DNA of 34,949 bases from Verrucomicrobiota bacterium. GTDB lineage: Bacteria; Verrucomicrobiota; Verrucomicrobiia; Limisphaerales; UBA8199. The position numbers and the translations under genes are program-made. Shown one piece after another: positions 16,093-24,426 of this stretch. Each line of letters begins with the position of its first letter. Position 1 is the stretch's first letter. The notes beneath the pieces are model-generated. The model worked only from the letters and a program-made list of their open reading frames with translations, was not told where the DNA came from and ran no database searches. The stretch lies in the NCBI GenBank assembly GCA_029974925.1, contig JARKQH010000057.1:1-34949 (forward strand), written 5' to 3'.

Positions 16093-17022
16093 ATGACCAG
16101 GCATAAACCTTATCGCCCGCCGGTGGTTCGGCAACCGCTGCCGCGCTCGTTCAAGGACCTGACTCCCGCGCGGCACTTCAACCCGCGGACGTTTTTCCGG
16201 CAGATGGTGCTCAAGGCGCTGCTGACCCGGCGAACGGGCCAGTCGCGAAAACCGGTCTTCCCGAAGCTGAGCCACGGCCAGGTGGCGATCACCTGGATCG
16301 GGCACGCCTCCTTCCTGGTGCAGTTCACCGACCTGAACGTGCTGATTGATCCCAACTTCGCCAACTGGCTCTTCCTCCTCAAACGACTGAAGCGGTCCGG
16401 CTTGCGGATCGAACACCTCCCGCCGATTGACCTGGTGCTGCTCACCCACGCTCACTTCGACCATTTCCACAAACCGACGCTCCGGCGCCTGCCCCATCCC
16501 AAGATTGGCGTCATGCCGTGGGGGATGGGCGACTTGGCGCACGGGTTGGGCTTTGGCCGCGTGGTCGAGTTGGAGTGGTGGGAGAGTTTTTCCCACCGCG
16601 ACTGGAAGGTCATCCTCACCCCGAGCAAACACTGGGGCGCGCGCGTGTTGCGGGATCATCACCGGGGTTATGGCGGTTTTGTGCTGGAGCATCAGGGCCG
16701 GCGCATCTACCACGCGGGCGACAGCGCCTATTTCGAGGGCTTCAAGGAAATTGGCAGGACCTGCGCGCCGGAAATCGCCCTGTTGCCCATCGGCGCTTAT
16801 CATCCCGAATCGTTCCGGTGTGTGCACATGGGCCCCGACGACGCCATCCAGGTCTTCAAGGACCTGGGCGCGCGCTGGCTGGTGCCGATGCACTACGGCA
16901 GTTTTCAACTTTCCTTCGAGGAAATGGACGAGCCCCCGCGCTGGCTGCGGCAGCTCGCCGCGGAAAACGGGATCAGCCGCCACGTCAAGATTCTCGACGA
17001 AGGCGTGCCCCAGGTGTTCTGA
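16093..17022 (+). CDS. Metallo-beta-lactamase-fold hydrolase (UlaG/NAPE-PLD-like)
   Basis: The 309-residue protein has a full dinuclear metal site: WIGHASFLVQ then LIDPNF, the HAHFDH motif (His119, His121, Asp123, His124), His180 in TPSKHWGAR, Asp210 in HAGDSAYF and His267 in PMHYGSF. The GHASFLVQ entry, the SKHWGAR motif and the LLPIGAY/MGPDDA segments resemble the UlaG-like and NAPE-phospholipase-D-like branch, which includes phosphodiesterases and lactonases. There is no signal peptide; the first ~55 residues are a basic extension (PYRPPVVRQPLPRSF). A TATAAG box at 16073-16078 lies 14 bases before the ATG, so the leader may be very short. The substrate is not predictable. A GC hairpin follows at 17052-17099. 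Confidence 0.88.
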   Translation: MTRHKPYRPPVVRQPLPRSFKDLTPARHFNPRTFFRQMVLKALLTRRTGQSRKPVFPKLSHGQVAITWIGHASFLVQFTDLNVLIDPNFANWLFLLKRLKRSGLRIEHLPPIDLVLLTHAHFDHFHKPTLRRLPHPKIGVMPWGMGDLAHGLGFGRVVELEWWESFSHRDWKVILTPSKHWGARVLRDHHRGYGGFVLEHQGRRIYHAGDSAYFEGFKEIGRTCAPEIALLPIGAYHPESFRCVHMGPDDAIQVFKDLGARWLVPMHYGSFQLSFEEMDEPPRWLRQLAAENGISRHVKILDEGVPQVF

Positions 17023-20343: not shown

Positions 20344-20373
20344 TTGACACCCCAAGCCGTTGCGTCTTATAAA
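20344..20373 (+). promoter_or_regulatory. sigma70-type promoter of nrdR
   Basis: A perfect -35 TTGACA (20344-20349) is followed after 18 bases by TATAAA (20368-20373), or after 17 by the overlapping TTATAA. The predicted start of transcription near 20380 leaves a leader of ~22 bases before ATG 20402. This also argues against the in-frame start at 20360, which lies inside the promoter. Confidence 0.75.
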
Positions 20374-20379
20374 GGGCGT

Positions 20380-20396
20380 GGCCACAATATGTGGCC
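20380..20396. promoter_or_regulatory. Dyad at the transcription start of nrdR, possible autoregulatory site
   Basis: GGCCACA-ATA-TGTGGCC is a seven-base-arm inverted repeat that begins at the predicted transcription start and ends five bases before ATG 20402. Its core CCACAATATGTGG partly resembles the NrdR-box pattern (about 11 of 16 positions of acaCwAtATaTwGtgt, compared from memory). It could bind NrdR itself, or act as a leader hairpin. Only one copy was found, whereas known NrdR sites usually occur in pairs. Confidence 0.5.
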
Positions 20397-20401
20397 TCGC
20401 T

Positions 20402-20857
20402 ATGCGATGTCCTAAATGCGGCTGCCAGGATGATAAGGTCATTGATTCTCGCGCCTCTCGCGAAGGCGCGACCATCCGTCGTCGCCGTCAATGTATCGCT
20501 TGCGGTTATCGCTACACCACCTACGAAGAAATCGAGCGCGCCGGGCTCGTCGTCCTCAAACGCGACGGACGCCGCGAGGAATTCTCGAAAGAAAAACTGC
20601 TCTCCGGATTGCGCAAAGCCTGCCAGAAACGGCCCATCAGCCCGAAGGTGATCGAGGACATGGTCGAGCGGATCGTCAACGAGATTACGGACCAGTACGA
20701 GCGGGAAGTTCCGGCCGAGGTCATCGGGAAATTGGTGATGGATGGGTTGCGCTCGCTCGACCAGGTCGCCTACGTGAGGTTTGCGAGCGTTTACCGGAGG
20801 TTTCAGGAGGCGACCGACTTTGTGCAGGAGGTCAAGAAACTGGAAGGCAAGGTATGA
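20402..20857 (+). CDS. nrdR: Transcriptional repressor NrdR
   Basis: NrdR senses ATP/dATP and represses ribonucleotide reductase genes. The 151-residue protein has the zinc ribbon with Cys3, Cys6, Cys31 and Cys34 (MRCPKCG and CIACGYRYTT), the linker IDSRASREGATIRRRR, and the ATP-cone domain from ~49 on (VVLKRDGRREEFSKEKLLSG to VAYVRFASVYRRF). ATG 20402 is chosen because the family starts exactly MRCPKCG and the promoter lies just upstream. There is no Shine-Dalgarno in the 22-base leader; a dyad occupies it instead. The stop overlaps the start of the next gene (ATGA at 20854), implying translational coupling. No ribonucleotide reductase gene is in the window. Confidence 0.97.
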   Translation: MRCPKCGCQDDKVIDSRASREGATIRRRRQCIACGYRYTTYEEIERAGLVVLKRDGRREEFSKEKLLSGLRKACQKRPISPKVIEDMVERIVNEITDQYEREVPAEVIGKLVMDGLRSLDQVAYVRFASVYRRFQEATDFVQEVKKLEGKV

Positions 20858-21408
20858 TTTTACTCGCGCAAAATTGCTTGGTTTTCGAGACGCCCGACGG
20901 CGGGGTGCCCTTCACGCCCGACATGATTTCCGTCGAGGTCAGCGGTCAGGACGACCACGGCTTCGGGCCGGAGTTCATCGAGCAGGCGGCCAGCGCGGTG
21001 TTCCATTACTTCAAGCATGACCAGGGCCGCCTGAGCATCACCATTGCCGAATTTGCCGAGGCGATGGAAAAAGTGCTGGCAGGCTTCAGCCCCGCTCCCC
21101 CGACGCCTTCCAACGCGGCCGCCTCGCCCGAGGTGCGCGAATCCGACCTCCGGCAAATTGCCCGGGAATCGGGCGGCGGTTTCGAGCTGGTCTTCTTCCC
21201 GCGGCTCCGCCACGAGCTGCGGCAGCAGTTGTCCCTCGCCCCTCGCGTGCTGCGATTTCGCGGTTTGCGCGGTTGCGTCAAGGACCTCCTGGGTGCGCGC
21301 CGCTGGACGCCCAAGTGCCGGGCCCTGCAGGACCAGATTGTGTGTTTTCTGCGCGAATGCCTCAGCGCCGAGCCGAGGCAAACCGGATTCGCGCTGGTGG
21401 TCGAATAG
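20854..21408 (+). CDS. Unrecognised two-domain protein translationally coupled to nrdR
   Basis: I do not recognise this 184-residue protein. Its ATG overlaps the nrdR stop as ATGA, so it should be translated from the same message. Residues 1-78 form one predicted alpha/beta domain (ILLAQNCLVFETPDGGVPF, then two helices around 39-54 and 64-77). Residues 79-92 are a Pro/Ala/Ser linker. Residues 93-184 form a second, basic domain with Leu/Arg-rich helices and four of the five Cys (141, 155, 164, 169). The helix-SITIAEF-helix end of the first domain has a spacing that loosely recalls the end of an ATP-cone, but the nucleotide-binding lysine and GR motif are missing. No signal peptide or membrane helix is present. 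Context suggests a partner in nucleotide-pool control or an unrelated housekeeping role. Confidence 0.8.
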   Translation: MILLAQNCLVFETPDGGVPFTPDMISVEVSGQDDHGFGPEFIEQAASAVFHYFKHDQGRLSITIAEFAEAMEKVLAGFSPAPPTPSNAAASPEVRESDLRQIARESGGGFELVFFPRLRHELRQQLSLAPRVLRFRGLRGCVKDLLGARRWTPKCRALQDQIVCFLRECLSAEPRQTGFALVVE

Positions 21409-23015: not shown

Positions 23016-23708
23016 ATGCCAGAGCAACCCGAAACCGGCATGGAAATGCCGGAACAGACACAAGACCCGAATCCGTCGCAGGGGGGAGCCCGCACGGGCC
23101 GCAGCCGCGGCCGGCGGGGGCGTGGCCGGCGGGGCGGGGGCAGACCCAGGACGAGCTCCCAAGCAGCAGCGCCGCCGGAAGCCGCCCAAGAGGCGCCGCG
23201 CGCCGCCTCGGCCGCGGAAGTCGAGGCCCCTGCTGCGGAATCAGCAGCTCCGCCAGACACCGATCGGACCGAAACCGCCCCGCCCGCCGCCGAAATGCCG
23301 GAACCGACCACGCCGGTCGAGGATGAGGAAGTCCAGCGGGAGACTTTGCCGCCGCCCGTGGCGGAAACGCCTGCTCCGCCTCCCGCCCCGCCGGCGTCGC
23401 CGCCCCGCCGCGAGCATTATCCCCACCGCCGCGAACCTTACCCGCCCCGCCGCGACCGCGACTACCCGCCGCCGCCGCCGCGGCGGCCGGCCGACCCGAT
23501 GGCAGTCCGCGAAGCCATTGAGGAGGTCACCCACATCGTGGACACTTTGCGCGAGACCCTTGACGACATGGAGGAAGTGCTCGAGACCCTCGAGCTGGCC
23601 GAACGGCAAAAGACGGCGGATGAGCAGGAAATCGAAAACCTCCGGCGCGCCTTGCGCCCGCTCCAACGGCCTCGCGACGGGGGCGGCGGTCAGGGGCCGC
23701 GACGCTGA
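23016..23708 (+). CDS. RG-rich, proline-rich protein with C-terminal coiled coil
   Basis: This 230-residue protein has no recognised enzymatic domain. Residues 1-45 are MPEQ-repeat and Arg/Gly-rich (RGRRGRGRRGGG), as in RNA-binding tails. Residues 46-125 are Ala/Pro/Glu-rich and disordered. Residues ~128-160 repeat Tyr-Pro and Arg-Arg (HYPHRREPYPPRRDRDYPP). Residues ~163-220 form an acidic coiled coil (EAIEEVTHIVDTLRETLDD to EIENLRRALRPL). It begins 110 bases from the divergent sulfatase and ends 16 bases before the start chosen for the SMUG1-like gene. Composition is biased, but the coiled coil and the clean stop support a real gene. A nucleic-acid-associated scaffold role is only inference. 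ATG at 23046 is an alternative start. Confidence 0.72.
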   Translation: MPEQPETGMEMPEQTQDPNPSQGGARTGRSRGRRGRGRRGGGRPRTSSQAAAPPEAAQEAPRAASAAEVEAPAAESAAPPDTDRTETAPPAAEMPEPTTPVEDEEVQRETLPPPVAETPAPPPAPPASPPRREHYPHRREPYPPRRDRDYPPPPPRRPADPMAVREAIEEVTHIVDTLRETLDDMEEVLETLELAERQKTADEQEIENLRRALRPLQRPRDGGGGQGPRR

Positions 23709-23724
23709 CCCGGCCCGGGCCCTG

Positions 23725-24426
23725 GTGCTCGCCGCCCGGAGGCTGCGGCAGCGGGTGGCGCGACTCCAATTTGCTCCGCCGGTCTGGTGCGTCTATAACC
23801 CGCTCGACTACGCCTGGGCCTCACACGAGCTTTACCTTCGCCGCTACGGTTGCGGACGGCGGCGCGTCGTGTTTCTCGGAATGAACCCGGGCCCCTTCGG
23901 CATGGCGCAGACGGGCGTCCCGTTTGGCGAGGTCCGCGCCGTGCGTGACTGGCTCGGGATCGAAGCCCCGGTCCGCAAACCGCCCCTGGAACATCCCCGC
24001 CGCCCCGTCCTGGGCTTCGACTGCCTCCGAACCGAGGTCAGCGGACAACGGCTCTGGGGCCTGTTTGCCTCACGGTTTGGCACGCCGAACGAGTTTTTTC
24101 GCAACCACCTCGTCGTCAATTACTGCCCGCTGGCTTTCCTCGAGTCTTCCGGCCGGAACCGCACCCCGGACAAGCTCCCGTCCGCGGAAAAAGCGGCGCT
24201 GACGGCGGCTTGCGACGAGCATTTGCGGCGCGTGGTCGAAATCCTCCAACCGGAATGGCTGATTGGCATCGGTGACTTTGCCTGGCGTCAGGCCCTCGTG
24301 CTTTTCTCGAAGACCGGACCCCGGCTCGGCAGAATTCTCCATCCCAGCCCGGCCAACCCCGCCGCAAACCGGGACTGGGCGGCGCAGGCCACCCGTCAAC
24401 TGCAGGAGCTTGGCGTCTGGTCCTGA
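23725..24426 (+). CDS. SMUG1-type single-strand-selective uracil-DNA glycosylase
   Basis: SMUG1 enzymes excise uracil and oxidised pyrimidines from DNA. The ~233-residue protein shows YNPLDYAW near the start, the family's motif 1 GMNPGPFGMAQTGVPFGE at 52-69 (with Asn54), VRDWLGI, GFDCLRTEVSGQRLWGLF, and motif 2 HPSPAN with His206 at the catalytic position. Length and motif order fit the family, which is patchily distributed in bacteria. The start is uncertain: no ATG lies close to the homology. GTG 23725 gives a protein beginning at LAARRLRQRV; ATG 23620 is in frame but would overlap the coiled-coil gene by 89 bases. No good Shine-Dalgarno supports either, and translation may depend on the upstream gene. 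Confidence 0.93.
   Translation: MLAARRLRQRVARLQFAPPVWCVYNPLDYAWASHELYLRRYGCGRRRVVFLGMNPGPFGMAQTGVPFGEVRAVRDWLGIEAPVRKPPLEHPRRPVLGFDCLRTEVSGQRLWGLFASRFGTPNEFFRNHLVVNYCPLAFLESSGRNRTPDKLPSAEKAALTAACDEHLRRVVEILQPEWLIGIGDFAWRQALVLFSKTGPRLGRILHPSPANPAANRDWAAQATRQLQELGVWS

Follow-up and report, generated by a model that had tools for sequence, protein, structure and literature searches.

The gene that follows nrdR in the window (the whole 34,949-nt stretch of DNA that was analysed) encodes a 184-aa protein, here termed X, which is very likely a non-catalytic pseudoenzyme derived from ribonucleotide reductase (RNR), composed of an ATP-cone that has lost its lysines and of a segment of the class III enzyme NrdD. 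X is a real gene with a conserved family and gene order; both of its domains are homologous to parts of RNR, and the catalytic and nucleotide-binding elements have been lost. NrdR governs DNA-precursor synthesis in most bacteria, and X is probably a regulator of DNA-precursor supply that has not been described before. We favour, at a probability of roughly 0.55, a pseudoenzyme which is produced from an NrdR-controlled operon and which would regulate dNTP supply by contact with NrdR and/or RNR.

A conserved companion of NrdR built from RNR parts would add a second protein layer to DNA-precursor control, and an uncharacterised family of Akkermansia-like and many uncultured Verrucomicrobiota would gain a concrete, testable role. 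No protein like X appeared in the titles and abstracts returned by searches of open-licence PMC articles (on NrdR with its ATP-cone, Verrucomicrobiota and neighbouring genes, and on RNR pseudoenzymes); within that literature, X would be an undescribed RNR-derived pseudoenzyme.

Identification of the gene

The original prediction of an open reading frame starting on the nrdR stop codon was confirmed in its coordinates, plus strand and length: the TGA of nrdR and the ATG of X share 4 nt (ATGA). The upstream product scores 192.3 bits against TIGR00244 (E 4.4e-57; cut-off 124.65). As had been anticipated, X belongs to no known curated family, since searches of Pfam, NCBIfam and PHROGs with the window protein assigned none. 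A PDB sequence search with this protein or with the first X profile returned nothing useful, and no viral homolog was found in IMG/VR. X is not matched by the NrdR model (TIGR00244; 0 families), nor does it contain CxxC pairs in residues 1-50. Its two halves differ in charge, residues 1-78 having a pI of 4.3 and residues 93-184 a pI of 10.1, the latter with cysteines at 141, 155, 164 and 169. The features of the locus are collected in Table 1.

Table 1. Features of the nrdR-X locus in the window.
Feature	Position	Strand	Basis
Putative NrdR box 1, CCCCAAGCCGTTGCGT	20350..20365	.	Weak in this genome; position and 32-nt spacing match the order-wide pair
Putative NrdR box 2, CCACAATATGTGGCCT	20382..20397	.	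Same pair, conserved position and spacing over the order
nrdR, Zn-ribbon + ATP-cone repressor of ribonucleotide reductase genes	20402..20857	+	TIGR00244
X, very likely a 184-aa two-domain pseudoenzyme	20854..21408	+	ATG at 20854, stop ends at 21408
X residues 1-86, degenerate ATP-cone	20854..21111	+	hhalign, PF03477 matches on homologs, VIA
X residues 88-184, class III RNR barrel segment (beta-alpha-beta-alpha-alpha-beta)	21115..21405	+	hhalign, VIA

The N-terminal domain is a degenerate ATP-cone

The AF2 element order of the N-terminal domain is bb-a-a-b-a, as in the ATP-cone, with a beta hairpin (residues 9-20), two helices (22-32 and 39-56), a strand (61-63) and a further helix (64-78). By hhalign this domain scores 55.5 against NrdD ATP-cones (Prob 96.9, E 1.5e-10; this and every other hhalign E-value given here refers to a single comparison), 44.5 against a pooled cone set (E 3.5e-8), shuffles of which reached at most 16.3, and 23.3 against NrdR cones (E 7e-4); the first hhalign run of X against an NrdR profile gave no signal. 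The cone of X is thus far closer to those of NrdD than to those of NrdR (55.5 versus 23.3), and in HMMER searches the X profile picks up NrdD proteins by their ATP-cone (G164, E 7e-7). VIA comparisons placed the domain alongside NrdR cones at Z 8.3-6.8 (9a6n 8.3, 7p37 7.5) and class I R1 cones at Z 6.1-5.5 (5im3 6.1). The Pfam ATP-cone model PF03477 does not match the window protein; it finds several homologs (L071 at 24.4, L056 at 22.1 and G182 at 21.7 bits), the best of which lies under the gathering score of 25.8.

Nucleotide is held in NrdR by K50, R51 and K62 (S. coelicolor NrdR numbering) (PMC9110341). The K50 column contains K in 123/123 cones, and L, T, V or M in X, while X carries G, P, A or S at the R51 column and W, M or L at the K62 column. 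Residues 6-86 of X therefore represent an ATP-cone fold from which the nucleotide-binding lysines have been lost and, as the contacting K/R residues are replaced, standard binding of ATP or dATP by X is improbable. The hhalign and VIA results and these three columns agree with the earlier reading of the first domain as ATP-cone-like but devoid of nucleotide-binding residues. X has in common with PF03477 the beta hairpin and helical bundle, the nucleotide-contact residues being replaced; with NrdR it shares the ATP-cone fold and the operon, but lacks the Zn-ribbon, the RRRR DNA-binding motif and equivalents of K50, R51 and K62.

The C-terminal domain is homologous to part of the class III RNR barrel

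VIA comparison of the C-terminal domain with T. maritima NrdD (residues 364-497) gave a Z of 8.9, an rmsd of 3.4 and 96 aligned residues. Although a Z near 9 is by itself modest, the top rows for this domain were all class III RNRs, unrelated folds reaching Z 6.2 at most. The two AF2 models of X have pLDDT values of 84.9 and 86.5 and a pTM of ~0.5, which leaves the relative placement of the domains unfixed by the models; the top 18-20 VIA rows for both consist of class III RNRs and NrdR ATP-cones. Profile comparison selects the same NrdD segment as both models: residues 86-184 score 40.3 against it by hhalign (Prob 92, E 6.5e-7), compared with a mean of 10.4 and a maximum of 21.9 in 100 column shuffles, and 12.4 for the reversed profile. 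The matched parts of NrdD are the strand starting INLPR and the strand IGLxGxNE with its helices, and the matched stretch corresponds to T. maritima NrdD 371-502, the same as in the structural match. An initial hhalign run against a long NrdD alignment, the first row of which was an over-extended ORF, missed this signal, which appeared once NrdD had been cut to the segment and sequences had been added. Because the segment had been picked after the structure match, all windows of NrdD were scanned; this region alone scores, and both halves do so separately. Furthermore, the divergent clade of X proteins in a second class of Verrucomicrobiota repeats the match on its own (score 31.5, E 8e-5; shuffles at most 20.2).

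The finger loop of T. maritima NrdD spans residues 319-367 (PMC9669993). Residues 88-184 of X are hence homologous to the NrdD barrel segment that lies just after the finger loop. The original prediction was correct in describing this domain as basic with clustered cysteines, but not in regarding it as unknown; X matched no unrelated known family, and the profile search and structure prediction instead point to the functionally related RNR. Plain Foldseek places AAA+ chains first, at weak E-values of 0.01-0.05, as would be expected if the domain were a fragment of an AAA+/RecA-like ATPase rather than of RNR. Such an origin is highly improbable, given that VIA yields a Z of at most 6.2 for AAA+ proteins versus 8.9 for class III RNR, that X displays no visible Walker A motif and that hhalign links the domain to NrdD.

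X and NrdD (PF13597; T. maritima 4col, P. copri 8p23, S. thermophilus 9dau) share their domain order, an N-terminal ATP-cone being followed by the post-finger-loop segment (T. maritima ~364-502). X is, however, far shorter (184 aa versus about 650-740 aa). It lacks the ~300 alignment columns between cone and segment, among them the first half-barrel and the finger loop, as well as everything past the segment, including the PAE motif and the glycyl-radical domain. Instead of a complete ten-stranded barrel with a finger-loop cysteine it possesses one barrel segment only, and it ends at the strand before PAE. X should be non-catalytic, since it has neither the finger-loop cysteine nor the barrel end nor the glycyl-radical domain. 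Pfam and NCBIfam NrdD models do not match the window protein, and PF13597 was absent among the matches listed for 52 and 47 X members. The simplest origin for X would be an nrdD gene from which the middle and the end were deleted, leaving the cone and the barrel segment, while fusion of a cone to an NrdD fragment could also have produced this arrangement.

Distribution and conservation of X

Homologs of X (34-61% identity) occur in 54 of 58 related genomes, which represent the order Limisphaerales/Pedosphaera (Verrucomicrobia subdivision 3), and span dozens of its families. Within the same class X is present in 203 of 286 genomes, and it is also found in Akkermansia-like genomes. In the second Verrucomicrobiota class the X profile matches 54 of 146 genomes, ~30 of which, judged from match ranges, hold a two-domain X; the remaining matches are mostly other ATP-cone proteins, NrdD included. 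Four loci titled Akkermansia muciniphila (L208, L213, L220 and L236) carry a Limisphaerales-type X and match genomes of the order-level survey, such that their names look wrong. A short ORF 3' of nrdR in three Opitutales-like loci (L309, L310 and L311) contains a GLR...[KR]xW-like stretch; the hhalign match to X (Prob 82, E 1e-5) comes from these three sequences only, and the ORF is possibly a strongly diverged, shortened X.

Six residues (W151, F53, F67, L99, F114 and L138) do not vary among 52 sequences, while R139, C141, K143, R150, C155 and R167 are each kept in 48-51 of the 52, and R119 is also conserved. The conserved R, K, C and W positions are new, being unseen in NrdD, as is the conserved signature GLRxC..K.....RW..RC. 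Among the cysteines, C141 and C155 are nearly invariant in the order, C169 is present in 45/52 and C164 is not conserved. Zinc binding by this cluster was considered and rejected, given the lack of conservation at C164 and the loss of C141 from Akkermansia-like homologs.

That new residues have become conserved (W151 in 52/52, together with R139, C141, K143, R150, C155 and R167) argues for selection on function rather than decay. The catalytic parts are indeed missing from X, and NrdD was detected above the cut-off in 0/58 genomes of the order, as might be expected of a decaying nrdD remnant with no present function. This is nevertheless very improbable in view of the strong conservation of X, its retention in dozens of families, its survival in genomes that have lost nrdR (see below) and its presence alongside an intact NrdD in Akkermansia-like genomes.

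Gene order at X loci

nrdR lies immediately 5' of X at 54/54 order-level loci, once as a pseudogene, and in most of them X begins before nrdR ends; the shared stretch commonly measures 4 nt, and 35 nt in loci with a longer NrdR. nrdR is also directly upstream at 28 further loci of the class and at 12/12 loci of the second class. Further searches gave 111 loci, several of them from genomes already counted; nrdR is directly upstream at 110, and the remaining locus begins inside X at a contig end. Apparent non-adjacency at L188, L274, G465, G529 and G477 was rejected, reflecting distance-calculation artefacts or contig ends. A search for an nrdR-X gene fusion found none. Homologs situated mostly away from nrdR were thus not seen in this survey of Verrucomicrobiota, nrdR being upstream in essentially every locus.

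A pair of NrdR-box-like sites, ~31-32 nt apart, precedes nrdR at 54/54 related loci, with a mean pair score of 25.3 versus 20.0 ± 1.4 in shuffles; the consensus had been relaxed in part on those very loci, and the pair in the window is weak. Because of this relaxation, the putative pair supports, but does not prove, autoregulation of nrdR.

The next gene after X in 66/82 loci (median gap 18 bp) encodes a HIT-family protein (PF01230), for example in L005-L077 and L166-L245, and the usual arrangement is therefore an nrdR-X-HIT operon. Most of the class shares this operon; HIT has an unrelated fold and is not part of X. X might work with this nucleotide hydrolase, or might itself bind nucleotide or nucleic acid, and exert no direct control on RNR. 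The close spacing of the two genes, the survival of the X-HIT pair after NrdR loss and the basic C-terminal domain with its conserved R119, R139, K143, R150 and R167 are consistent with such a role. We nonetheless consider it unlikely: HIT directly follows nrdR in lineages without detectable X, the window X has no adjoining HIT gene, and both X domains stem from RNR machinery.

Loss of NrdR and the proposed role of X

Three genomes provide cases of natural loss of NrdR with X retained. In G031 (L276/L047) the nrdR pseudogene is interrupted by stops, by a frameshift and by a ~275-nt insertion. No nrdR was detected in G591 (L275), a one-contig genome of the same genus, or in G043 (L281), which belongs to another family and is 93% complete. 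All three retain X and HIT, and RNR is kept in G591 and G043. Since G591 and G043 lost NrdR yet kept X, NrdR cannot be the sole partner of X, nor can its modulation be the whole function. The earlier proposal of a conserved partner or modulator of NrdR consequently stands as regards gene order, but not as an account of everything X does.

The RNR class differs among X-bearing genomes. The window genome has a class II NrdJ without a cone, but a general rule in which X supplies the cone to a cone-less RNR was rejected, as several X-bearing genomes have coned RNRs. X may act on RNR itself (here NrdJ), either inhibiting it by docking or assisting its assembly, and lie beside nrdR for co-control only. 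Its assembly from RNR parts, the persistence of X and RNR in G591 and G043, and the NrdR-box-like sites of its operon, like those of RNR operons, are compatible with this. Yet the co-translation of X with nrdR is conserved in two classes and points to a stoichiometric relation with NrdR, and the varying RNR class makes a single conserved docking site less than obvious, so that action on RNR alone is possible but rather doubtful.

The broader reading, a pseudoenzyme in dNTP control that makes contact with NrdR and/or RNR, is favoured because X, HIT and RNR outlast NrdR. Co-translation over two classes suggests an NrdR partner; the gene order is compatible with simple co-expression. We infer NrdR control of the operon, protein contact and a regulatory role as follows. 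X would be made from an NrdR-controlled nrdR-X-HIT operon via translational coupling to nrdR; its pseudo-cone could pair with NrdR cones and alter the ATP/dATP-dependent oligomers of NrdR, and/or its barrel piece could dock on RNR itself. The most likely function of X would then be to regulate dNTP supply through contacts with other proteins. Specific contact with NrdR is, on its own, a tentative proposal. More speculative still is the idea that X, as a truncated and catalytically dead class III RNR whose synthesis keeps pace with that of NrdR, would insert an empty ATP-cone into the nucleotide-sensing oligomers of NrdR and so tune repression; if true, X would be an RNR pseudoenzyme serving as a transcriptional co-regulator.

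Other open reading frames near X

Elsewhere in the window, the end of a long ORF (23700-24426) resembles, by eye, a SMUG-type uracil-DNA glycosylase, and an ORF at 16093-17022 resembles an MBL-fold hydrolase. Similar-looking ORFs form a cluster ~2 kb 5' of X in 14 of the named loci.
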